Shown here: piece by piece, positions 6,200-19,730 of the stretch
Numbering within the stretch: position 1 is the stretch's first letter
How the letters are laid out: the number at the start of each line of letters is the position of its first letter
DNA from: a virus
Length of the DNA: 20,863 nucleotides
IMG/VR virus record: IMGVR_UViG_3300017917_002363
Span: 1 to 20,863 of that record
Direction: 5' to 3' (one strand)
The notes under the pieces: model-generated
The model's input: the letters and a program-made list of their open reading frames with translations, nothing else
The model's database searches: none
Told to the model about the DNA's origin: nothing
Position numbers and translations under genes: made by a program

Positions 6200-6649
6200 A
6201 TGAGTATTACCATTAGAAACCTTGAAAGTGCATTGGCAGGCGAAAGTCAGGCACATATTAAGTATCGTTATTTCGCCAAGATTGCTCGTGAGGAAGGCTT
6301 TGAAGAAGTGGCAAAACACTTTGAACATACTGCCAACCAAGAGTTACTACACGCATGGGGTCACCTAGAATTGTTGATTGGTAAACCATCGACAAAAGAA
6401 TGTTTAGAAAAAGCCATTGAAGGTGAAACATATGAGTTCACACAAATGTATCCTGCATTTGAAGCCCAAGCTCAATTAGATGGTGATGAGGCTGCTGTAG
6501 AAGAAGCACAGCACCAAATTGCTGAATCAAAAGAGCACGCTGAACAATTTATTCAAGTATTGCGTAAGGCAGAAAAACGTTTTGCAGCTTTAAAGAAAGT
6601 TGAAGAGCGTCATGCAAACGCTTACAAAAAAGTATTGGAGACCGTATAA
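6200..6649 (+). CDS. Rubrerythrin-type diiron protein (no rubredoxin domain)
   Basis: The 149-residue product is a ferritin-like four-helix protein of the rubrerythrin group. Likely iron ligands are E15 (AGES), E48 and H51 (NQELLHA), E76 (EGETYEF) and E135/H138 (VEERHANAY). Rubrerythrins reduce hydrogen peroxide with electrons from a rubredoxin centre. Residues about 100-131 look like an extra helical insertion before the last ligand helix. The usual C-terminal rubredoxin domain is absent here but is encoded by the next, overlapping gene. AAAGGAG gives a strong ribosome binding site. In infection it may detoxify peroxide in a host with few defences; this is inference. Confidence 0.85.
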   Translation: MSITIRNLESALAGESQAHIKYRYFAKIAREEGFEEVAKHFEHTANQELLHAWGHLELLIGKPSTKECLEKAIEGETYEFTQMYPAFEAQAQLDGDEAAVEEAQHQIAESKEHAEQFIQVLRKAEKRFAALKKVEERHANAYKKVLETV

Positions 6650-9482: not shown

Positions 9483-9763
9483 ACGATTTATTTTATAATC
9501 TATTTGATTGGATTCGTGATGATTGGAAATCTGGTAAATTCCGCTTTGTCGTGGAGTTATTGGCGTGGGCAATTTCTATTGGATGCTCTATTGTCATGGC
9601 TCTCACCGTTCCTAACCCACCGTTACTCATTCTATATCCTATTTGGATTATTGGTTGTGCTATGTATGGTTGGGCTGCTTGGACTCGTAAATCTTTTGGG
9701 ATGGTCGCTAATTACGTTTTACTTACTACTATTGATACAGTCGGCTTAATTAGAATGCTATGA
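9479..9763 (+). CDS. Three-helix membrane protein (GTG start)
   Basis: The frame starts with GTG at 9479, overlapping the previous TGA by 4 bases. The 94-residue product has membrane helices at about 23-42, 48-67 and 74-92, with PNPPLL between the first two and WAAWTRKSFGM between the second and third. A segment reading SFGMVANYVLLTTID is very conserved-looking and familiar from marine phage proteins of unknown function. Another long frame inside it (9504-9749) is taken as a shadow. Confidence 0.68.
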   Translation: MNDLFYNLFDWIRDDWKSGKFRFVVELLAWAISIGCSIVMALTVPNPPLLILYPIWIIGCAMYGWAAWTRKSFGMVANYVLLTTIDTVGLIRML

Positions 9764-10389
9764 ACTATACACAAAATGTAATACTGTTTGGAGCCGTGCC
9801 GGCATTTTGTAAAATTATACCACAGATAGAAAACAATGTTATCGAATATATAAAAAATGTTGAATATGAGGATTTTGTGTCAAAAACTGGTTATGTCAGT
9901 TGCAATAAAAAACTTTTAGAAAATGAAAATTTAAAAGATTTGAAAAAAATTATTGAAGAAAATTTGTTATTTTATACAAATAATATTCTTGGTATAAAAA
10001 ATACTTTAAAATTTAAAATGACAAATTCTTGGGCCAATAAACACAAACAAAATGACCATATTCCTGAGCATTCACACAGCAATTGTTTAATTAGTGGTGT
10101 TTTATATTTACAAACAAATTCTGAATCTGGAGATTTCTTAATAAAAAACTTAAATTCGTTTTCAAATTTAATTGTTCCTGAATTTGAAAACACAACAATT
10201 TTTAATATGTCGCATTTTAGAATTAAACCAGAAAACAATATGATAATATTTTTTCCTTCTCACTTAATTCATATGGCAGAACAAAATAAATCATCCATGG
10301 AAAGATATTCTCTGGCTTTTGATTTTTTTCCTTATGGAAAAGTAAATAATCAATTTGGTCAAATTGAATACTTAGAGCCTAATATATAA
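9760..10389 (+). CDS. Putative 2OG-Fe(II) oxygenase-like protein
   Basis: This 209-residue protein matches the phage 2OG-Fe(II) oxygenase family typified by H-x-H followed by SGVYY. Visible are W91, H104-S-H106, SGVLYL (112-117), a distal histidine in FPSHLIH (H171) and the basic R182 with S184 in RYSLAF, expected to hold 2-oxoglutarate. Such enzymes hydroxylate or otherwise oxidise proteins, nucleic acids or small molecules in the cytoplasm. The gene is visibly more AT-rich than its neighbours. Related proteins are at 11560, 16214 and 16744. The substrate is unknown; it could belong to the modification cluster that starts at 11560, but it is separated from it by four genes. Confidence 0.75.
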   Translation: MNYTQNVILFGAVPAFCKIIPQIENNVIEYIKNVEYEDFVSKTGYVSCNKKLLENENLKDLKKIIEENLLFYTNNILGIKNTLKFKMTNSWANKHKQNDHIPEHSHSNCLISGVLYLQTNSESGDFLIKNLNSFSNLIVPEFENTTIFNMSHFRIKPENNMIIFFPSHLIHMAEQNKSSMERYSLAFDFFPYGKVNNQFGQIEYLEPNI

Positions 10390-10391
10390 TT

Positions 10392-10991
10392 ATGAATATC
10401 TTTTATCTTGACCACTGCCCACAGAAATGTGCTGAGTACCATGTAGATAAGCACGTTGTCAAAATGATTCTAGAATACTGCCAGTTGCTTTCAACCGCAC
10501 ACCGTATTCTTGATGGCAAAGAAACGATTGCAGAATCAAAAACAGGTCGTAAAGTGAAACGCTGGATTTTACCTGATGAGAGAGAAACAGTTTTGTATTC
10601 TGCCACTCATGTAAACCATCCATCGGCCGTATGGTGCCGTGAAACTGCTGGTAACTATCATTGGCTCTATAAGTTACTCACCTCATTGTGTGCCGAATAC
10701 ACCTATCGTTATGGTAAGGTGCATAAGTGCCAAGAAACTGGTTTGGTTGACGCCTTACAATTTGCACCACATAAAATAGATTCACAAGACCCATTTAGTG
10801 GTCCTACACCAGCGATGCCTGATGCCTGTAAAGTACCAGGTGATTCACTAAAGTCATACCGCAATTACTATATCATGGAAAAGCAAAGAATGTGGTCATG
10901 GAAAGGTAAGATAAATAAGAGAGAGGTACCACCTTTTATGAAGGACTGGTTCCACAAGATGAATGAATCCCTTTCACATGAGTATATGTAA
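10392..10991 (+). CDS. Conserved phage protein rich in His and Cys at the N-terminus
   Basis: The 199-residue product begins MNIFYLDHCPQKCAEYHVDKH, with H17, D19, H21, C30 and H37 clustered, followed by ATHVNHPSAVWCRET (71-85) and DPFSGPTPAMPD (132-143). The clustered His residues could bind metal or form a nuclease-type active site, but I do not recognise a catalytic family. The pattern is familiar from marine T4-like phages, where it is unnamed. The stop TAA shares its last base with the ATG of the next gene. Confidence 0.7.
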   Translation: MNIFYLDHCPQKCAEYHVDKHVVKMILEYCQLLSTAHRILDGKETIAESKTGRKVKRWILPDERETVLYSATHVNHPSAVWCRETAGNYHWLYKLLTSLCAEYTYRYGKVHKCQETGLVDALQFAPHKIDSQDPFSGPTPAMPDACKVPGDSLKSYRNYYIMEKQRMWSWKGKINKREVPPFMKDWFHKMNESLSHEYM

Positions 10992-11559: not shown

Positions 11560-12153
11560 ATGAATTTGAATGATGTGAAGAAGTTTAAATGTAATGATAA
11601 ACAATTATATGAAAACACAACACTAACATCAAGTATCAATCTTTTACTAGATTTGCCTGATGTTGTATGTAGAAACCAAGGCACAAAATACGATTCTGCC
11701 TACGGTGAAGTTCTCACATCTGTTGGTAACGAATATTCTGATGTGACCACACTACCAGGTGCCGAGAAATTGGTACAATGGATCACCTCAAAAATTCAAG
11801 AAACAGTACCTAAAGGTAAAACATTTGAATATATTAAATCATGGGCTAATAAAATGTTCTATGGTAGCCAAGGTTTAGTTCATGCACATATACATCCAGA
11901 TTTTAAAAATTACAAATCAGATTTTGTAGCCATATTTTATGTTCATATTCCTAAAGATGGTGGTCAATTAGTGTTTGTTGATGGTGGTGAGTTTAATAAA
12001 AGATATACTGAATACGATGAATCGAAAATACATATTATGCAATGTGAAACAGGTGACCTAGTTATACACCCACCCACAATACCTCATGCAGTTACATTAC
12101 ACAATAGCCACACACCTCGTTTATGTTTAGTGTTTGAGGGTCGATATGTCTAA
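11560..12153 (+). CDS. 2OG-Fe(II) oxygenase
   Basis: The 197-residue product has the HxD...H...R signature of Fe(II)/2-oxoglutarate oxygenases on a double-stranded beta helix: H112-P-D114 inside the His-rich HAHIHPD, then IFYVHIPKDGGQLVFVDG, H176 in IPHAVTL and R187 to bind 2-oxoglutarate. It would oxidise C-H bonds (hydroxylation or related) using O2 and 2-oxoglutarate, in the cytoplasm. It is the first gene of a run of redox modification enzymes around a Cys-rich protein and overlaps the radical SAM gene by 8 bases, so a role in peptide or protein modification is likely but inferred. A cupin-like non-catalytic role is the main alternative. Confidence 0.8.
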   Translation: MNLNDVKKFKCNDKQLYENTTLTSSINLLLDLPDVVCRNQGTKYDSAYGEVLTSVGNEYSDVTTLPGAEKLVQWITSKIQETVPKGKTFEYIKSWANKMFYGSQGLVHAHIHPDFKNYKSDFVAIFYVHIPKDGGQLVFVDGGEFNKRYTEYDESKIHIMQCETGDLVIHPPTIPHAVTLHNSHTPRLCLVFEGRYV

Positions 12154-13666
12154 TTGTATTATATTATCTGGTGGGACTTGGAGTCCTACACAACAACCAA
12201 AAATAAAAAGACCCCTTGGTCCATATCGTCTGTGTTCCGAGTTAGAAGAACATGGTTACACAACTTTTGTTTTAGAATTTATAGAAGAATTTTCAACAGA
12301 AGAAATAATAAAAGTTTTATCAAATCATGTAGGAAAAGATACTCTTTGGTTTGGGTTTTCTTCTACTTTTTATTGGCCAGAAAAAAATATAAAAGACATG
12401 ACGGGAAGAACGGAAAAAGATGATTTGGCTGAAATGTATTATACTGAGGATTATCAAAAGGTAGAAGATATTATCAATTTTGTTAAAAAAAACAGTAACG
12501 CTAAAATCTTATATGGAGGAGCAAAAAGTCCATATTTTTCATATAAAGAAACAGATAAAAACATAGATTATTATGTTACAGGAAATGCTGACAATTCAAT
12601 TATTGATTTGACAAATTTTTTAGCAAATAAAACGGAAAAAATAAAATATATTAAAGATAAAATAATAGATTCATTTGGTTATCCTGAACCAGATATAAAA
12701 AATATTTCTACTCATTGGTGGAAACCACATTATAATATCTTAGAAAGAGAAGGTTTACCAATTGAGTTGGCTAGAGGCTGCATTTTTAAATGTAAATTCT
12801 GTGATTTCCCTTTAACAGGAAAAAAGAAAGGAACTTATCTTAGAGATCCTTTACAAATTAAAGATGAAATGATTAAGATATGGGAAACAAACAAAACAGA
12901 TTCTTATTTATTTACAGATGATACATTTAATGATGATAATGATAAACTGGAAGCTCTACACAAAGTATTTACTGAGTTACCATTTAAATTAAAATTTGCA
13001 ACATACCTTAGAGTTGATTTAATTAATAAATTTACTCACCAAGCCGATTTACTAACTGAAATGGGTATGATTGGAACTTTTTTTGGTTTAGAAACTTTGC
13101 AACCAGAATCAGCTCGTGCAATTGGTAAAGGATTACATCCAAATAAAGTAAAAGATAGACTGTATTGGCTGGCAGAAAAATGGAAAAATAAAGTCAATAT
13201 TGAAAGTGGTTTTATAATTGGGTTACCTTATGACAATTTTTCTTACTTTAATGAATTGTTGGTTTGGACTCTTGAAGAAGATAATCCAATTCAATCTATT
13301 AGTTTTTATCCTTTGATGTTGTTTAACCATGACAAAAATAGTGGTCTGGAAAGATACAATTCGGAATTTAGTATAAATCCAGAGATATATGGTTATGAAT
13401 TTAAAGATAATATTGTTATGTGGAATTTACCTAGTCAAAAATTAAACTATAAAACTTGTTTAGATTTGGCCAATAAATTTTCAGACCTAAGGAATCCTCT
13501 AAACAAAATTGCTGGTTTTCATATGATAACCTCGATGAACACTGGTGTTGAATTGAAAGACATTTATCATTTAACCCAACAGCAAATTGAAGAAAAATAT
13601 GACATTCCAGGCATGAACCGAAACAAAATCAATGAGTATAAACGGTTATTGGACTTATATAAATAG
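12146..13666 (+). CDS. Radical SAM enzyme with B12-binding-domain-like N-terminus
   Basis: The start is set at the ATG at 12146 with GAGGG at 12136-12140. The 506-residue product has the 4Fe-4S radical SAM motif C212-x3-C216-x2-C219 (CIFKCKFC), preceded by LPIELARG, and later FGLETLQPES (313-322) and GFIIGLPYDN (355-364), as in the cobalamin-dependent class B layout (B12 domain, then radical SAM). The N-terminal 160 residues resemble a Rossmann-type B12 domain, but no DxHxxG cobalamin motif is visible, so B12 use is uncertain. Class B enzymes methylate unactivated carbons or rearrange substrates in peptide natural products. The gene is very AT-rich. Its stop codon touches a T4-type late promoter serving the Cys-rich gene that follows. 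Confidence 0.88.
   Translation: MSNCIILSGGTWSPTQQPKIKRPLGPYRLCSELEEHGYTTFVLEFIEEFSTEEIIKVLSNHVGKDTLWFGFSSTFYWPEKNIKDMTGRTEKDDLAEMYYTEDYQKVEDIINFVKKNSNAKILYGGAKSPYFSYKETDKNIDYYVTGNADNSIIDLTNFLANKTEKIKYIKDKIIDSFGYPEPDIKNISTHWWKPHYNILEREGLPIELARGCIFKCKFCDFPLTGKKKGTYLRDPLQIKDEMIKIWETNKTDSYLFTDDTFNDDNDKLEALHKVFTELPFKLKFATYLRVDLINKFTHQADLLTEMGMIGTFFGLETLQPESARAIGKGLHPNKVKDRLYWLAEKWKNKVNIESGFIIGLPYDNFSYFNELLVWTLEEDNPIQSISFYPLMLFNHDKNSGLERYNSEFSINPEIYGYEFKDNIVMWNLPSQKLNYKTCLDLANKFSDLRNPLNKIAGFHMITSMNTGVELKDIYHLTQQQIEEKYDIPGMNRNKINEYKRLLDLYK
13658..13665 (+). promoter_or_regulatory. T4-type late promoter for the Cys-rich gene
   Basis: The exact octamer TATAAATA, recognised in T4-like phages by the gp55 sigma factor with gp33 and the sliding clamp, overlaps the end of the radical SAM gene. 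The expected start is about 13671, giving a leader of about 25 bases before the ATG at 13696. It indicates late expression of the Cys-rich protein and possibly of the downstream enzymes. Confidence 0.75.
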
Positions 13667-13695
13667 TCAATATATTTGAAAAAAAAGAGATTAAA

Positions 13696-14094
13696 ATGAC
13701 ACTACCTTCTTCCGGACAAATAACAATCGAAGATGTAAATACTGAAACTGGTCGTGGATCCGGTACACAAACGGGTATTGATTGGATTCGAGATAACACA
13801 AAAGATAATGCCACAGCACTAAATCAACTATATGACCGTGCCTACTATCAAAGAAATGTAGACGGTAATTGTAATAACGGAAACTGTACCAGCAACTGTA
13901 ACTGCGGTAACATTCAATGTAATAACTGTGTAATTTCTGGTGCTATAAATTGCACCAACTGTGATTCACAATCTTGGTTACAAGGTAACTGTAACTGCGC
14001 CTGTACCTATAATTGCACAACATCAGAAACCTCATACAATTGTAACTGTGCTTGTGCTTGTGCCTGTTTTGTTTGTGCTTGTGCCTGCTGGTAA
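13696..14094 (+). CDS. Cys-rich protein, candidate substrate of the modification enzymes
   Basis: This 132-residue protein has two parts. Residues 1-57 carry no Cys and begin MTLPSSGQITIEDVNTETGR, like the LPSSG-x-I...VN starts I know from marine phage structural (tail-like) proteins. Residues 59-131 hold 20 cysteines, mainly as C-x-C and C-x-x-C with Asn, Ala or Gly between: NGNC, NCNC, QCNNC, CNCAC, then alternating Cys-Ala pairs. The protein ends in Trp (W132); W30 and W94 are the others. It is flanked by a B12-like radical SAM, a SPASM radical SAM, three oxygenase-like genes and a halogenase-like gene, as expected of a RiPP-like precursor with leader and core. Alternatives are a metal-binding protein or an unmodified disulfide-rich virion tip. 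A late promoter precedes it. Confidence 0.8.
   Translation: MTLPSSGQITIEDVNTETGRGSGTQTGIDWIRDNTKDNATALNQLYDRAYYQRNVDGNCNNGNCTSNCNCGNIQCNNCVISGAINCTNCDSQSWLQGNCNCACTYNCTTSETSYNCNCACACACFVCACACW
14047..14085 (+). repeat. TGTGCY hexamer repeats coding Cys-Ala
   Basis: Within the Cys-rich gene, TGTGCT TGTGCT TGTGCC (14047-14064) and TGTGCT TGTGCC (14074-14085) are in-frame direct repeats encoding Cys-Ala pairs, separated by TGT TTT GTT. Slippage here would change the number of Cys-Ala units without breaking the frame. Confidence 0.7.
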
Positions 14095-14118
14095 TTATTT
14101 TATAATTTAAGGATTAAT

Positions 14119-15561
14119 ATGATATTTGAGATTTTAGCTGAAAAAATTGGTGGTGGTAAAGCCACTTTTTATTATGATAATGAATTTAACATTCTTAAAG
14201 ATTCTAATGAAAATGTATTTGAATATCCAGAAGAAAAGAGAATGAAACAGGACAAACAACCTGTAGTGCCGTTTGATAAAAACAGCCCACTAAAAAAATC
14301 ACCACAAATCAAACTGTTGAAAATACAGTTGGGTCTTTCGTGTAACTATTCTTGTGATTACTGTTCTCAGAAATTTGTTGAACGAGCACCAGAAACATCT
14401 AAAAAAGATATTGATGCCTTTTTGGCCAAATTAGACAATCTAGAGTTTTCTGAGGAAAAAGGTTTGAAGATTGAGTTTTGGGGTGGTGAACCATTTGTAT
14501 ATTGGAAAACATTGAAACCATTGGCAGAAGCATTGCGTGAACGATTCAGCCATTGGCAAAAAGAACCTGTATTCTCCGTGATTACCAACGGTTCTATTCT
14601 CACCAAAGAAATATGTGCATGGTTATATTACATGGGCTTTCAAGTGGCTATTTCACATGATGGTCCAGGCCAATCAGTTCGTGGTCCTGATCCTTTTGAT
14701 GATCCAGACCAAAAGAAAATTATTCTTGACTTCTACAAAATTATGAACAAACAAAAAAGAATTAGTTTTAATTCTATGATGAATAATAAAAATAGAAGTC
14801 GTAAAGAAGTTCATGATTGGTTTATAAAACTTACTGGTGATCCAAATGTTCCTTTAGGTGAAGGAACAATTGTTGATGCCTATGATGAAGATGGCTTAGG
14901 TAATTCATTAGATTCTTATCAGGATCATTTTGAGTATCGTAAATTAGCTTTTAATGATATTCATTCGAATAATGGAAACATTGGCTTTGGTATGATTATA
15001 TCTAAGATTGATGAATTCACCACCAATGTATTATCACATACTGAATCGAAGTATCTCGGTCAGAAGTGTGGTATGGATGATGTTGATGTCATGGCTGTTG
15101 ATTTACGAGGTAATGTAATGACCTGCCAGAACGTAAGTCCCTTAGAAATTGCCAAAAACGGTGAGAGCCATTTCGGTGGTACACTAGATGATATTGAAAA
15201 CATTACATTGAAATCAGCCACACACTGGATGAATCGTGCTGGTTGTGCAAGTTGTCCTGTTCTACATATCTGTAAAGGCTCTTGCATGTTCTTAGACGAT
15301 AAGTATTGGGAAGTATCATGTAATAATGCTTATTCTGATGCTATTGCTTTATTTGCTTTATCATTTCAAAAAATGACAGGTTATGTGCCTGTATTGATTA
15401 AGAATGACAAGTTACCAAAGGATCGCCAAGATATTTGGGGTACCATGTTGCAACACGAAGAAAAAACAAAAAAGAAAATCATTCCCATCAAAGTAGTTTC
15501 TGAAGTGATTGGTAAGATTGATGATGTTGAGGTTTATGGGAAATCTAAAGTAGAGGCCTAA
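14119..15561 (+). CDS. SPASM-type radical SAM peptide maturase
   Basis: The 480-residue product has the radical SAM cluster motif C75-x3-C79-x2-C82 (CNYSCDYC) and FWGGEP (120-125), then a C-terminal set of cysteines C317, C336, C376, C379, C385, C389 and C401 in the order expected of a SPASM domain binding extra 4Fe-4S clusters. Enzymes of this group (anaerobic sulfatase maturases, sactipeptide and ranthipeptide synthases) install thioether or C-C bonds in peptides or oxidise a Cys/Ser side chain. The first 65 residues could hold a peptide-recognition part. The gene starts 24 bases after the Cys-rich gene with AAGGA as ribosome binding site and a TATAAT just upstream. That makes the Cys-rich protein its best candidate substrate. 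Confidence 0.9.
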   Translation: MIFEILAEKIGGGKATFYYDNEFNILKDSNENVFEYPEEKRMKQDKQPVVPFDKNSPLKKSPQIKLLKIQLGLSCNYSCDYCSQKFVERAPETSKKDIDAFLAKLDNLEFSEEKGLKIEFWGGEPFVYWKTLKPLAEALRERFSHWQKEPVFSVITNGSILTKEICAWLYYMGFQVAISHDGPGQSVRGPDPFDDPDQKKIILDFYKIMNKQKRISFNSMMNNKNRSRKEVHDWFIKLTGDPNVPLGEGTIVDAYDEDGLGNSLDSYQDHFEYRKLAFNDIHSNNGNIGFGMIISKIDEFTTNVLSHTESKYLGQKCGMDDVDVMAVDLRGNVMTCQNVSPLEIAKNGESHFGGTLDDIENITLKSATHWMNRAGCASCPVLHICKGSCMFLDDKYWEVSCNNAYSDAIALFALSFQKMTGYVPVLIKNDKLPKDRQDIWGTMLQHEEKTKKKIIPIKVVSEVIGKIDDVEVYGKSKVEA

Positions 15562-16224
15562 ATGTCACCACAGTTACAAAAAGCATTAGAGATAGCCACT
15601 TCAATTAAAGAAGTTATTTCTGTTCAAGCAATTGAGCCACCACAAAATATATTAGACCAAATTCAAAATAAGAATAGTGTGTATTTGGATTTTGTGATAC
15701 AAACCAAATCAGGTGAAATGCCTTTTGCAATTGTTGTGCCTAAAACATTAGTTGATAGTGTGGACGATTCTTTAAATATACCAATCAAAGAACTATTATC
15801 ATGTGGCTGCACACAGGTTGAAGATGGTGTTGGTCATATGTGTGGTTACAGTATATTTGACAACATTGGTAAAATGACCTATTATGTCCGTGAATCTGAC
15901 CAATACTTGGTCAAATTAATTGATGCTGAAGCACCTCCCGTTTTTGAACAAACAGAAAATCTAAAAAAACTGGTAACAAAACTTGAAGCGGTGACTGGTG
16001 TAAAAAGAATTGTAATTGAAGAAATTGTTGATGAAAGTTTAAAACAAAGCTTAGAAGCAGAACGACCAATAATTGTTAAAGCATATATCGATGTTAATGC
16101 TGATAAAATTATTGACCATTTTATTTCTTTTGCTGTAACAGAATTAGTTTATGATATTGAAACTAGTCATGAGTGGGCTGTGAATAATCTTATGGATATG
16201 ATTGAAAAGAACAATGCACAATGA
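15562..16224 (+). CDS. Unknown protein in the modification cluster
   Basis: The ATG immediately follows the stop of the SPASM gene. The 220-residue product appears to be mixed alpha/beta, with PFAIVVPKTLV (54-64), a cysteine motif C81-G-C83 and C94 (GHMCGYS), and an Asp/Glu-rich second half. I recognise no family, signal peptide or membrane segment. Its place between the maturase and the oxygenases, with an 11-base overlap into the next gene, suggests it works in the same pathway, perhaps as a substrate-binding or scaffold protein; that is inference from context only. Confidence 0.7.
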   Translation: MSPQLQKALEIATSIKEVISVQAIEPPQNILDQIQNKNSVYLDFVIQTKSGEMPFAIVVPKTLVDSVDDSLNIPIKELLSCGCTQVEDGVGHMCGYSIFDNIGKMTYYVRESDQYLVKLIDAEAPPVFEQTENLKKLVTKLEAVTGVKRIVIEEIVDESLKQSLEAERPIIVKAYIDVNADKIIDHFISFAVTELVYDIETSHEWAVNNLMDMIEKNNAQ

Positions 16225-16747
16225 AAAAATAATATTTGGTACACCGATTTGGATTCATCAATTAGATATATCAAACAGTAAACTGGAAGAAGAAGGTCGA
16301 CCATATAAATCTGGTAATTATTTTGACCTCAACACACCAGAAATCAACAAATTAAAATATACAGTAAAAGATTACTGTGACCAAATAGCTGAACAATATC
16401 GGTGGAATAAAAAAGCCACTTACATTGTTGGTCGGCAAAATCCAATATTTCCAGGAGAAAACGACACACCACATGGTCATCACCATGCTATGATGGTTGC
16501 TGTGTATTATTTGCATGTGCCAGAAAAATCAGGCGACATCATATTAAATGATCCTCGTGGCATGGTATTTTGGGTTGACCCTCAGGTAGTCAATGATGGT
16601 CCACATAAAAGTTGTAGGTCGTATCATCGCATTACACCTAAACCTGGAATGTTACTGATGTTTCCAAACTATCTAATACACTCAGTTGAAACCAATTTGA
16701 GTAATAAAATGAGGTTATCAATTATGATGGAGATTTATAATCTATGA
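16214..16747 (+). CDS. 2OG-Fe(II) oxygenase-like protein, copy A
   Basis: The start is placed at the ATG at 16214, not at a TTG 4 codons upstream. The 177-residue product belongs to the putative 2OG-Fe(II) oxygenase family with RQNP (74-77), H87-G-H89-H90-H91, VYYLHVPEKSGDI (97-109), NDPRG (112-116), the distal H156 in PNYLIHSVETN and R167. It is clearly paralogous to the following gene (shared RQNP, DPRG, SVETNLS, MRLSI). The histidine cluster differs: where copy B has HPD, copy A has HHH. This may alter iron binding or chemistry. It probably modifies a peptide or protein in this cluster. Confidence 0.8.
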   Translation: MHNEKIIFGTPIWIHQLDISNSKLEEEGRPYKSGNYFDLNTPEINKLKYTVKDYCDQIAEQYRWNKKATYIVGRQNPIFPGENDTPHGHHHAMMVAVYYLHVPEKSGDIILNDPRGMVFWVDPQVVNDGPHKSCRSYHRITPKPGMLLMFPNYLIHSVETNLSNKMRLSIMMEIYNL

Positions 16748-17271
16748 ATAAAGTGAGTTTGTTTGCAACACCGGTTTGGACTACCATGCTGGATAATTAT
16801 GAAGAATTAAATCAATACTTATTATCGGTTGCACCTCAATATCAAATGGGCACGGATTATTTTGAGATTGCTCCAATGTTAAAAACAAAAGTGTTGCCAT
16901 ATATTGAAGCCGTTGCTGAAGAATGTAATTTATCAAAAGAATTTACGGTATCTGCTCGGCAAAACCCAATGATGCCTGGTAAAAATAACTCACCACATCA
17001 CCATCCAGATTGTATGTTAGCGGTCGTTTATTACGTTAAGATACCACAGAATTCAGGTGATATACTATTACATGATCCACGAGGTTCAATTCTGTGGCAA
17101 GATCCACAAGCCAGAACCGATGTGAATTGGCAATCATATCGACCATACCATAAAATCACACCAATTCCAGGAATGCTTTTAATCGTTCCTGGTTATGTGG
17201 TACATTCCGTTGAAACTAATTTAAGTCAGGAGATGAGATTGTCAATAGCAATCTCTACACATTTTAAATGA
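16744..17271 (+). CDS. 2OG-Fe(II) oxygenase-like protein, copy B
   Basis: The 175-residue product is a tandem paralog of the preceding gene. Motifs are ARQNP (71-75), H85-H86-H87-P-D89, VVYYVKIPQNSGDI (94-107), HDPRG (110-114), H154 in VHSVETN and R165 in MRLSI. It retains HxD (H87, D89) in the metal region, whereas copy A does not. The 4-base overlaps at both ends indicate tight translational coupling with copy A and with the halogenase-like gene. Two diverged copies suggest two sites or two steps on a common substrate. Confidence 0.82.
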   Translation: MNKVSLFATPVWTTMLDNYEELNQYLLSVAPQYQMGTDYFEIAPMLKTKVLPYIEAVAEECNLSKEFTVSARQNPMMPGKNNSPHHHPDCMLAVVYYVKIPQNSGDILLHDPRGSILWQDPQARTDVNWQSYRPYHKITPIPGMLLIVPGYVVHSVETNLSQEMRLSIAISTHFK

Positions 17272-18422
17272 AATTTGTTATCGTAGGCGGTGGCACCGCA
17301 GGTTGGTTAACAGCCTTATACATTAACAAACACTTTCCAAATGATAGTGTAAATGTAGTGGCAAGTTCAGAGATTGGTATTCTTGGTGCAGGTGAAGGTA
17401 CCACACCACCCTTTGTGGATTTTCTAAAAGAGGTTGCCATTGATGAAAAAGAATTGTATAATAACTGTAAATCTACAATAAAAACTGGTATTAAGTTTAC
17501 AAATTGGAATGGCACAGGTGATGAATACTATCATAATTTCTCATCAGGCCTTCACGCATTACATTTTGATGCCAGTTTGTTGGCCAAATATTTTCAAAGT
17601 GTAGCAACATCACGGGGTGTTAATTTAATTGATGATGAAGTAATTGGTGTTCAATTTGAAGAAAACCAAGATATAGAAAGTTTATCGTTAAAATCAGGTA
17701 AACAAATTGAGGTCGATTTTCTATTTGATTGTTCTGGATTTAGAAGAATGTTTATTGGTGGCTATTACGATTCTAAATGGACAGAATATTCGATGCCATG
17801 TAAGAGAGCTATACCATTCTTTTTACCAAATGATGGTGTGAATCTACCTGAATATACCGAATCGATTGCAATGAAGTATGGTTGGATTTGGAAGATTCCT
17901 GTGCAAGGTCGATATGGTTGTGGTTATGTGTTTGATTCAAGCATGACAACTGATGAAGAAGCTGCAAATGAAATAAGAGAATATCTTGGCCATGATTTTA
18001 AATCACCAAAGACATTTAACTTTAGTGCAGGTGCATATGATAAATGTTGGATAAACAACTGTATGGCGGTTGGATTATCTTCTGGATTTATTGAACCGTT
18101 AGAAGCCACTTCTATTTGGGTTCAAATATTGGCACTAAGAATATTTGTTCAATCATTCAATATGCCAAATGGTAGAGAAAAGGTGAATAATGATGTTAAA
18201 GAGATTAATGAAGATGTTCTGTCCTTTTTGTATTATCATTACATGAGTAAAAGAGAAGATACGGATTTTTGGAAAAAGTTTACAACCAACAATGTAATGC
18301 CGAATAAATTAAAGAATGTTTTAAAATCAAAAGATATTATTGATAATTTGAAACAATACAATTTTAATATGTTTAATGAAAATAGCTGGCAAGCCATTAA
18401 AAATGGAATAAATTATGTTTAA
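17268..18422 (+). CDS. Flavin-dependent tryptophan-halogenase-like protein
   Basis: The 384-residue product has the FAD-binding GGGTAGW (7-13), a lysine in STIKTGIKFTNW (K72) at the position of the catalytic lysine of flavin halogenases, the WxWxIP signature (W206-I-W208-K-I210-P211) and SSGFIEPLEATS (271-282). Family members use FADH2, O2 and halide to chlorinate or brominate tryptophan or related rings. It is shorter than typical tryptophan halogenases (about 500 or more residues), mostly at the C-terminus, so substrate and regioselectivity cannot be predicted. It is translationally coupled to the two oxygenase-like genes. The Cys-rich protein upstream ends in a free C-terminal Trp, an attractive but unproven target. 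A flavin reductase is not seen here and would have to come from the host. Confidence 0.87.
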   Translation: MKFVIVGGGTAGWLTALYINKHFPNDSVNVVASSEIGILGAGEGTTPPFVDFLKEVAIDEKELYNNCKSTIKTGIKFTNWNGTGDEYYHNFSSGLHALHFDASLLAKYFQSVATSRGVNLIDDEVIGVQFEENQDIESLSLKSGKQIEVDFLFDCSGFRRMFIGGYYDSKWTEYSMPCKRAIPFFLPNDGVNLPEYTESIAMKYGWIWKIPVQGRYGCGYVFDSSMTTDEEAANEIREYLGHDFKSPKTFNFSAGAYDKCWINNCMAVGLSSGFIEPLEATSIWVQILALRIFVQSFNMPNGREKVNNDVKEINEDVLSFLYYHYMSKREDTDFWKKFTTNNVMPNKLKNVLKSKDIIDNLKQYNFNMFNENSWQAIKNGINYV

Positions 18423-19246: not shown

Positions 19247-19353
19247 TGCCAGATAAGAATTGTGTTAATGAACACCGTGTTAAAAGGATGAACATATACT
19301 TTACCATTGTTGCGGTATCATTTTTAGCAATATTGGTATTTCTAAATTCGTAG
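19246..19353 (+). CDS. Tiny single-helix membrane protein
   Basis: The ATG overlaps the previous TAA and gives 35 residues: a polar start with C6 and MPDKNCVNEHRVKR, then one membrane helix at about 15-33. GGGAG (19232-19236) lies upstream. It ends just before the tmRNA acceptor piece. The pair of one-helix proteins could form a complex; function unknown. Confidence 0.5.
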   Translation: MPDKNCVNEHRVKRMNIYFTIVAVSFLAILVFLNS

Positions 19354-19354
19354 A

Positions 19355-19406
19355 AGTTGTTAAAAAGTTGTTGTGGACGCCGGTGCAAATCCGGCCACCT
19401 CCACCA
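19355..19406 (+). ncRNA. ssrA: Two-piece tmRNA: acceptor piece (3' half, encoded first)
   Basis: This segment encodes the 3' end of tmRNA. It has a T arm GCCGG-TGCAAAT-CCGGC (19379-19395), 3' acceptor strand CACCTCC (19396-19402), A19403 and CCA (19404-19406). The acceptor strand pairs over 7 bp with GGGGGTG at 19466-19472, the 5' end of the coding piece, and includes a G3-U70 wobble, the alanylation signal. TTGTTA (19357-19362) can pair with TAACAA (19499-19504) as part of P2. Because the 3' half lies upstream of the 5' half, the gene is circularly permuted. The 5' boundary is approximate. Confidence 0.88.
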
Positions 19407-19465
19407 GAAGTATGTCTGACGAACCGTTCTGGTAGCAAACTCGTAAGAGGCAGAATACTTCTGAT
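19407..19465 (+). other. Intervening segment removed from the tmRNA precursor
   Basis: Between the acceptor CCA and the 5' end of the coding piece, CAGAAGTAT (19405-19413) and ATACTTCTG (19455-19463) form a 9-bp perfect stem, extended inward by CTG/CAG (19416-19418 and 19451-19453). The stem brings the two mature ends together, as expected for the excised linker of permuted tmRNA precursors. Confidence 0.75.
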
Positions 19466-19622
19466 GGGGGTGTTACAGATTCGACATGGCAATTAGTATA
19501 ACAATGGAGAATCGTCAATGCGAAAGACGATAGGGTTGAGGATACTCGGCCGAAGAAGCAAACTATTAAATGCAAACGAAAGCGTTTATAAAATTGCTGC
19601 CTAAACGGTAAGCGGAGTTTCG
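19466..19622 (+). ncRNA. ssrA: Two-piece tmRNA: coding piece with tag ANESVYKIAA
   Basis: The piece begins GGGGGTG (acceptor 5' strand), followed by TTACAGATTCGACATGGC, which matches the conserved D-loop region of tmRNA (GATTCGAC). A hairpin ATCGTC/GACGAT lies at 19511-19531. The resume codon GCA (19572) starts the tag reading Ala-Asn-Glu-Ser-Val-Tyr-Lys-Ile-Ala-Ala and ends at TAA (19602-19604); an Ala-Ala end is typical of degradation tags. With alanyl charging and SmpB it would rescue stalled ribosomes and mark proteins for proteolysis. The 3' end is not defined and may include the following hairpin. Confidence 0.9.
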
Positions 19623-19659
19623 CCAGGTGAACTTAGCAACAGAATCACCTGGTTGTTTT
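19623..19659 (+). terminator. Hairpin with T-rich tail after the tmRNA
   Basis: CCAGGTGA (19623-19630) and TCACCTGG (19645-19652) form an 8-bp stem with a 14-base loop, followed by TTGTTTTA. This fits an intrinsic terminator for the tmRNA unit; it could also be the 3'-terminal helix of the coding piece. Confidence 0.65.
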
Positions 19660-19666
19660 ATAAATA
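19659..19666 (+). promoter_or_regulatory. T4-type late promoter
   Basis: An exact TATAAATA follows directly on the T-rich tail of the tmRNA terminator. A start is expected near 19672, giving a leader of about 59 bases for the gene at 19731. The leader holds an (AC)-rich stretch (about 19701-19718) and little structure. The downstream genes, including the lysin, would be late genes. Confidence 0.75.
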
Positions 19667-19730
19667 GTAATACTAGGCAACACACATTAATGCTTAGTAA
19701 CACACAAACACACACAAAAGGAGAAGTAAA

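Follow-up and report, generated by a model that had tools for sequence, protein, structure and literature searches.

A phage gene cassette that probably matures the cysteine-rich tail of an adhesin-type virion protein with a SPASM radical SAM enzyme and a tryptophan halogenase module

A freshwater phage known from virus record IMGVR_UViG_3300017917_002363 (20,863 bases, the whole of which was analyzed and is called the window here) carries, at positions 11560-18422, a cassette of eight tightly packed genes, one of which encodes a small cysteine-rich protein ending in a tail of Cys-X-Cys (CxC) units and a final Trp (Table 1). The others encode a SPASM-type radical S-adenosylmethionine (SAM) enzyme, a second radical SAM enzyme, three 2-oxoglutarate (2OG)-Fe(II) oxygenase family proteins (oxyA, oxyB and oxyC), a protein of no assigned family (the 15562 open reading frame, or ORF) and a short flavin-dependent Trp halogenase family enzyme. 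We think it probable that the cassette matures a tail-fiber-associated virion protein of the adhesin type, with the SPASM enzyme acting on the CxC tail and a halogenase module on the last Trp. Judged by sequence, the Cys protein is most likely the virion adhesin-type substrate, the system is most likely a case of SPASM-type protein maturation on a virion adhesin, and phages probably use it to alter chemically the tip in contact with the host.

How might the tail be matured? The SPASM enzyme would take hydrogen atoms from the CxC tail and, most likely, join the Cys sulfurs to backbone or side-chain carbons as thioether cross-links, so that the tip would become rigid and resistant to oxidation. 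In the window's variant, oxyA, the 15562 ORF and the short halogenase would modify the C-terminal Trp; because the catalytic Lys and Glu are kept, halogenation is the most likely change. oxyB, oxyC and the second radical SAM enzyme may add hydroxyl, methyl or other marks. In relatives, self-cleavage by S74 or Hint domains would expose the modified tail as a free tip, since these domains start exactly where the CxC tail ends.

The first line of evidence is linkage. IMG/VR was searched with an alignment of the SPASM enzyme and, separately, with an alignment of the Cys protein; the two sets overlapped, and removal of near-copies left 99 distinct viral contigs. The bacterial set comprised 80 SPASM loci. 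Cys genes were called by a density test; a strict C.C.C.C motif count misses true members. A Cys gene is present in 97 of the 99 viral contigs. The linkage is reciprocal, as 76 of 79 viral loci selected through SPASM have a Cys gene and 72 of 73 selected through the Cys protein have SPASM, the exception (L187) extending only ~200 bases past the Cys match. Of the 80 bacterial loci, 52 encode within 4.5 kb of SPASM a protein that has a CxC motif or tail (a few, such as L098, counted through the Hint form), compared with none of 652 ORFs further away; a good share of the other loci lie at contig ends. The other genes are less constant: of the 99 contigs, 60 have an oxyB/C-type oxygenase, 20 the second radical SAM enzyme, 19 the halogenase and 18 oxyA. 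From the reciprocal linkage, these counts and the bacterial loci, it follows that SPASM and the CxC protein form the core and that the rest is optional.

These counts bear out the proposal of an earlier sequence-only reading of the window that the enzymes and the Cys protein belong together, for which it had suggested co-occurrence of the SPASM and Cys genes in viral metagenomes as a check. Its further expectation, that the enzyme set would be conserved with the Cys gene, holds for the SPASM/Cys pair and for the combination of halogenase, oxyA and terminal Trp, but not for the oxygenases, second radical SAM enzyme and halogenase as a fixed set, since these are optional across contigs. Many cyanophages and pelagiphages have 2OG oxygenases and Trp halogenases without SPASM, as would be expected if the cassette consisted of unrelated auxiliary metabolic genes that are neighbors by accident. 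Given the SPASM/Cys reciprocity and a module of oxyA, halogenase and terminal Trp seen over ~100 contigs, we regard this explanation as hardly probable at all. For SPASM and the Cys gene in particular, accidental neighborhood is strongly disfavored, and chance was rejected on the reciprocal linkage and the contrast of 52/80 with 0/652; oxyB, oxyC and the second radical SAM enzyme may still be such neighbors. We also note that ten Roseobacter-type genomes (L130, L132, L135, L136, L139-L142, L146 and L150) encode small proteins ending in NCNCNCRC or NCNCACRC, which sit ~1 kb upstream of the SPASM gene.

The Cys ORF is a real gene under purifying selection: a codon comparison with its relative in L001 gave 41 synonymous and 13 amino-acid-changing codons, and all 20 Cys are kept, 6 of them through a synonymous codon. 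Its frame, 143 amino acids from stop to stop, is 14% Cys, compared with 9.5% for the runner-up frame in the window; the protein has 132 residues and exactly 20 Cys, the latter number as first reported. Asn, Ala or Asp fills the middle position in 535 of the 549 CxC units (97%), and so narrow a choice is what would be expected of an enzyme substrate or of a tightly packed structure.

If the CxC tail is the substrate, what kind of protein carries it? In bacterial loci, the tail forms the final 10 to 20 residues of larger proteins, and four of the five such proteins scanned match PHROG "tail fiber protein" families. The SPASM gene is also found in two isolated phages of Achromobacter, JWF and 2-1. 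In JWF (L009 9793-11244 and 11950-13314), it lies two genes downstream of a CxC-Hint tail fiber, in which NCNCDCNCNCSC directly precedes the Hint domain. The JWF enzyme, PJWF_00030, is 43.8% identical to the SPASM enzyme of the window; JWF differs in that its fiber is of the Hint type, and the other cassette enzymes were without match in the JWF stretch searched. Viral loci contain four forms of the Cys protein, which either ends after the tail or continues with a Hint domain, an S74 chaperone or a domain beginning SKIxC. The first Cys of the Hint domain of L208 (Cys157, profile position 1) abuts the CxC tail, and in L023 the Ser129/Lys134 dyad of the S74 intramolecular chaperone abuts ...CNCACFW. 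S74-type domains have a Ser/Lys dyad five residues apart and are cleaved at the Ser (PMC3742440).

Other features point in the same direction. Tail-fiber genes directly precede the Cys gene in L184, L195 and L208, and in L013 they flank the cassette at either end; the Cys proteins of L066 and L238 have a glycine-rich insert like those of fiber-tip adhesins. The N terminus of the window protein weakly matches the starts of small proteins of Vibrio and Alteromonas phages that are encoded directly after tail-fiber genes; these matches in named phages miss the usual E-value limits, so the N terminus is a lead only. A weakly similar start is found in gp065 of Pelagibacter phage HTVC008M, encoded directly 3′ of the baseplate wedge initiator gene. 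The Cys proteins share with gp38-type glycine-rich adhesins and S74 chaperones the type of N terminus, the glycine-rich insert (L066, L238) and, in relatives, S74 and fiber neighbors; a CxC tail with dedicated maturases was not described for fiber-tip adhesins or caps in the literature found. A relative of the SKIxC... domain is encoded in Synechococcus phage SynMITS9220M01 directly 3′ of a fiber gene. This domain, which by eye contains a likely membrane helix, follows CxC tails or glycine-rich adhesin parts (L049:6490-6979, L242:4669-6516). No Pfam or PHROG family was found for the L049 copy; it could be another processing or anchoring domain.

These S74, Hint and tail-fiber contexts agree with the suggestion of the sequence-only reading that the product is a virion protein rather than an exported antibiotic. 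Its observation that there is no transporter or protease gene also stands, as none was found among the cassette genes with Pfam and NCBIfam. Its description of a complete pathway for a ribosomally synthesized and post-translationally modified peptide (RiPP) does not: the core is only SPASM and the Cys protein, and no leader peptide, RiPP recognition element (RRE), leader peptidase or exporter was detected in the cassette genes with Pfam and NCBIfam, RRE folds not having been searched by structure. It could nevertheless be argued that the Cys protein is a true RiPP precursor, cut by host or phage proteases to a small peptide that serves as a toxin, lysis aid or superinfection factor. A short Cys-rich ORF does adjoin a SPASM radical SAM enzyme, oxygenases and a halogenase, and enzymes encoded beside a presumed substrate, a RiPP hallmark, are seen here (76/79, 72/73). 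Since no peptidase or exporter was detected in the cassette and relatives fuse the tail to fibers, S74 or Hint domains, we consider such a peptide very improbable. An exported antibiotic RiPP was rejected on the same evidence.

The SPASM enzyme belongs to the large uncharacterized family PHROG_1802 (7.6e-60, 204 bits) and scores 32.8 bits against TIGR04085, above the cut-off of 27. Its radical SAM motif, CxxxCxxC at 75-82 (C75-C79-C82), is invariant in 7 sequences, and the seven-Cys SPASM motif, tested as Cx9-15Gx4C...Cx2Cx5Cx3C...C, is complete (C317-x13-G-x4-C336, C376-x2-C379-x5-C385-x3-C389, C401). By analogy with known SPASM maturases, thioether formation in the CxC tail is the most likely reaction. 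PapB/ranthipeptide and CcpM-type maturases are among its best NCBIfam relatives and likewise adjoin a Cys-rich substrate; unlike in these, no small precursor, leader peptidase or exporter was detected in the phage cassette. Membership in the PapB ranthipeptide maturases was rejected (NF047865, 80.9 bits, cut-off 340), and the CcpM-type score is 67.0 bits with a cut-off of 500.

The second line of evidence concerns the halogenase. The flavoenzyme matches PF04820 with 332 bits, and in alignments with Protein Data Bank (PDB) structures its K72 and E279 correspond to PrnA K79 and E346; GGGTAGW, WIWKIP and both residues are invariant in six loci. The halogenase-like assignment made from the sequence is upheld. 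The cassette enzymes share their family, these two residues and WxWxIP with PrnA, RebH, phage VirX1 and HTVC008M gp079. They differ in length (373 to 407 versus ~500 to 550 amino acids), in their linkage to the cassette and in a presumed protein-bound Trp substrate. The window enzyme is ~110 to 170 residues shorter than solved Trp halogenases and is without a segment corresponding to ~PrnA 104-156.

The presence of this enzyme coincides with the end of the Cys protein. After allowing for S74 cleavage in assigning the last residue of the mature chain, a table read by hand has Trp as the predicted mature C terminus at all 19 loci with a cassette halogenase and at 1 of the 64 other loci; that single locus, L051, is a 6.3-kb contig ending before the place of the halogenase. 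Fisher's test gave 5e-16 on a version of the table with 18/19, in which L050, whose sequence ends CACACW, had been scored by pattern as Hint-type. Trp stays last in the halogenase groups while its neighbors vary (CACACW, CNCW, CLW, CDCW, FNCW, CFW). Seven of nine large records without terminal Trp have no relative of the halogenase at all; the other two have a different Trp halogenase of canonical length (534 amino acids) elsewhere, far from the cassette. oxyA and the gene at the 15562 ORF position travel with the cassette halogenase, the latter following SPASM in the halogenase loci examined. Two side observations concern halogenases elsewhere. The two large phage records with the 534-residue enzyme (L247-L250) carry a Cys protein of the SKIxC type. 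In HTVC008M, a 2OG oxygenase gene and, after it, the gene for the short halogenase's closest relative in an isolated phage (39.6%; L245 8418-10377) are inserted between the two terminase genes; tblastn found no SPASM relative in this phage, and the substrate of its halogenase may also be a virion protein.

The closest working parallel to the cassette is maturation of quinohemoprotein amine dehydrogenase (QHNDH). One ternary complex there brings QhpC together with a SPASM enzyme that cross-links it and a flavoenzyme, akin to FAD halogenases, that dihydroxylates its Trp (PMC7876137). As predicted for the cassette, a SPASM radical SAM enzyme and a flavoenzyme thus act on one Cys-containing, Trp-bearing polypeptide, which ends up within a larger protein and is not exported as a peptide. 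The cassette differs in being phage-borne, in keeping the halogenase residues and in having a tail-type substrate with CxC repeats. Membership in the QHNDH system was rejected by score (TIGR03906, 67.9 versus 453 bits; NF049967, 36.6 versus 240 bits). Could the flavoenzyme nonetheless oxygenate the terminal Trp, so that this residue, joined to a Cys, would give the phage tip a redox cofactor resembling cysteine tryptophylquinone? The enzyme pair is the same as QhpD/QhpG on the cross-linked Cys/Trp polypeptide QhpC (PMC7876137), and QhpG is the top NCBIfam match of the flavoenzyme at 36.6 bits. However, this is far below the QhpG cut-off, the residues equivalent to PrnA K79 and E346 are kept, and partner dehydrogenase subunits were not seen, all of which make a cofactor of this type improbable.

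The main rival to maturation of the tail is that it is a metal-binding tip, in which the Cys line the axis of a trimeric fiber and bind Fe, Zn or FeS, and the enzymes only tune the site or act elsewhere. The T4 gp37 needle binds metal through His-x-His. Strict Cys-X-Cys alternation with small X residues, and the position of CxC at fiber ends, beside trimerizing S74 domains, would fit such a needle. Since it leaves without explanation both the SPASM maturase in nearly every locus and the link between terminal Trp and halogenase, we consider it rather unlikely.

Several points weigh against enzymatic maturation of a virion adhesin. All of the chemistry, the virion location and the host-binding role are inferred. 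No tail-fiber gene is adjacent to the Cys gene in the window itself, so the virion role of its product is drawn from relatives, and with E-values of 0.6 to 10 the N terminus is weakly similar to known tail-associated proteins. The AlphaFold models are monomers, and that of the Cys protein has a predicted local distance difference test (pLDDT) score of ~80 in the N-terminal region and a very low one, <50, over most of the Cys part. Mapped on the SPASM tree, the halogenase requires 4 changes; as the loci are related and contig truncation (L051, L022) accounts for two of these changes, the number of evolutionary events behind the Trp link is about two. The lack of a detectable RRE or leader belongs here as well.

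A wider reading is evenly balanced in our judgment: phages and prophages of many freshwater and marine bacteria would share a dedicated system that converts the C terminus of a tail fiber or its adhesin into a tip cross-linked by radical SAM chemistry and in some cases capped with a halogenated Trp. No earlier virion component would then have been matured by enzymes of the RiPP type. The enzyme families are not new in themselves; what the searched literature did not show is their pairing with tail proteins that end in CxC, the placing of self-cleaving domains at that tail or the association with a terminal Trp, and no description of such a phage system appears in the open literature covered (subscription journals and preprints lay outside it). 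If this is correct, receptor-binding tips would go beyond genetically encoded side chains and the 20 amino acids, through cross-linking and halogenation by dedicated enzymes, with a bearing on fiber stability and host recognition. Radical SAM/SPASM chemistry would enter virion assembly, nature would offer a halogenase for protein-bound Trp whose substrate can be predicted, and PHROG_1802 would gain a testable function. JWF, isolated and cultivable, is the best experimental entry point.

Table 1. Genes and protein regions of the cassette, in window positions
Feature	Position	Strand	Support
oxyA, 2OG-Fe(II) oxygenase family	11560..12153	+	PF13759, HPD 112-114
Second radical SAM enzyme, 506 aa from ATG 12146	12146..13666	+	CxxxCxxC at 212
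Cys-rich protein (presumed substrate), 132 aa, 20 Cys	13696..14094	+	
N-terminal region of Cys protein, aa 1-55, MTLPSSGxIxxxDVNxE..., adhesin / tail-fiber-associated type	13696..13860	+	
C-terminal CxC tail CNCACACACFVCACACW, last residue Trp (codon 14089-14091)	14041..14091	+	
SPASM radical SAM maturase (predicted), 480 aa	14119..15561	+	PHROG_1802, TIGR04085
15562 ORF, protein of no assigned family, two alpha-beta repeats	15562..16224	+	AlphaFold
oxyB, 2OG-Fe(II) oxygenase family	16214..16747	+	Pfam
oxyC, 2OG-Fe(II) oxygenase family paralog, HPD 87-89	16744..17271	+	Pfam
Short flavin-dependent Trp halogenase family enzyme, 384 aa	17268..18422	+	Pfam 6.3e-99

The gene run is as the sequence-only reading described it, with all eight genes on the same strand and overlaps of 8 nt between oxyA and the second radical SAM gene, 11 nt between the 15562 ORF and oxyB (ATG 16214), and 4 nt each between oxyB and oxyC and between oxyC and the halogenase gene; a further 8 nt overlap joins the next gene. 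Both radical SAM enzymes match Pfam Radical_SAM (2e-13, 1e-7). The label "B12-type" given earlier to the second was not established: CxxxCxxC is present, but the DxHxxG motif is absent and there is no match to the Pfam B12-binding domain (PF02310). Its nearest NCBIfam families are of the B12-binding/radical SAM kind, far below cut-off (TIGR04072, 70.6 versus 360 bits), so the likeness is a family resemblance only. Some known cobalamin-dependent radical SAM enzymes are also without DxHxxG.

All three oxygenase-like proteins are recognized by 2OG-FeII_Oxy_5 (PF13759), oxyA, oxyB and oxyC scoring 38.8, 67.4 and 64.6 bits against a cut-off of 27 (E-values of 1.2e-9, 1.6e-18 and 1.2e-17); oxyB has no HxD/E motif at the position where oxyA and oxyC have HPD. 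The AlphaFold model of the 15562 ORF (pLDDT 80) gave no credible fold match in PDB or BFVD (template modeling score ~0.2), and its product is a possible candidate adaptor.

Outside the cassette, a fourth 2OG-Fe oxygenase (PF13759, 4.5e-17) is encoded at 9760-10389, adjoined by a pyrimidine-dimer-glycosylase-like gene at 10392-10991. The window also contains a tRNA-Glu (TTC) gene (1439-1513), a candidate rubrerythrin/ferritin-like ORF noted by eye (6200-6649) and, on the + strand at 19346-19604, a circularly permuted tmRNA gene (Rfam RF04321, 110.7 bits; ARAGORN 19314-19695) with the predicted tag ANESVYKIAA.

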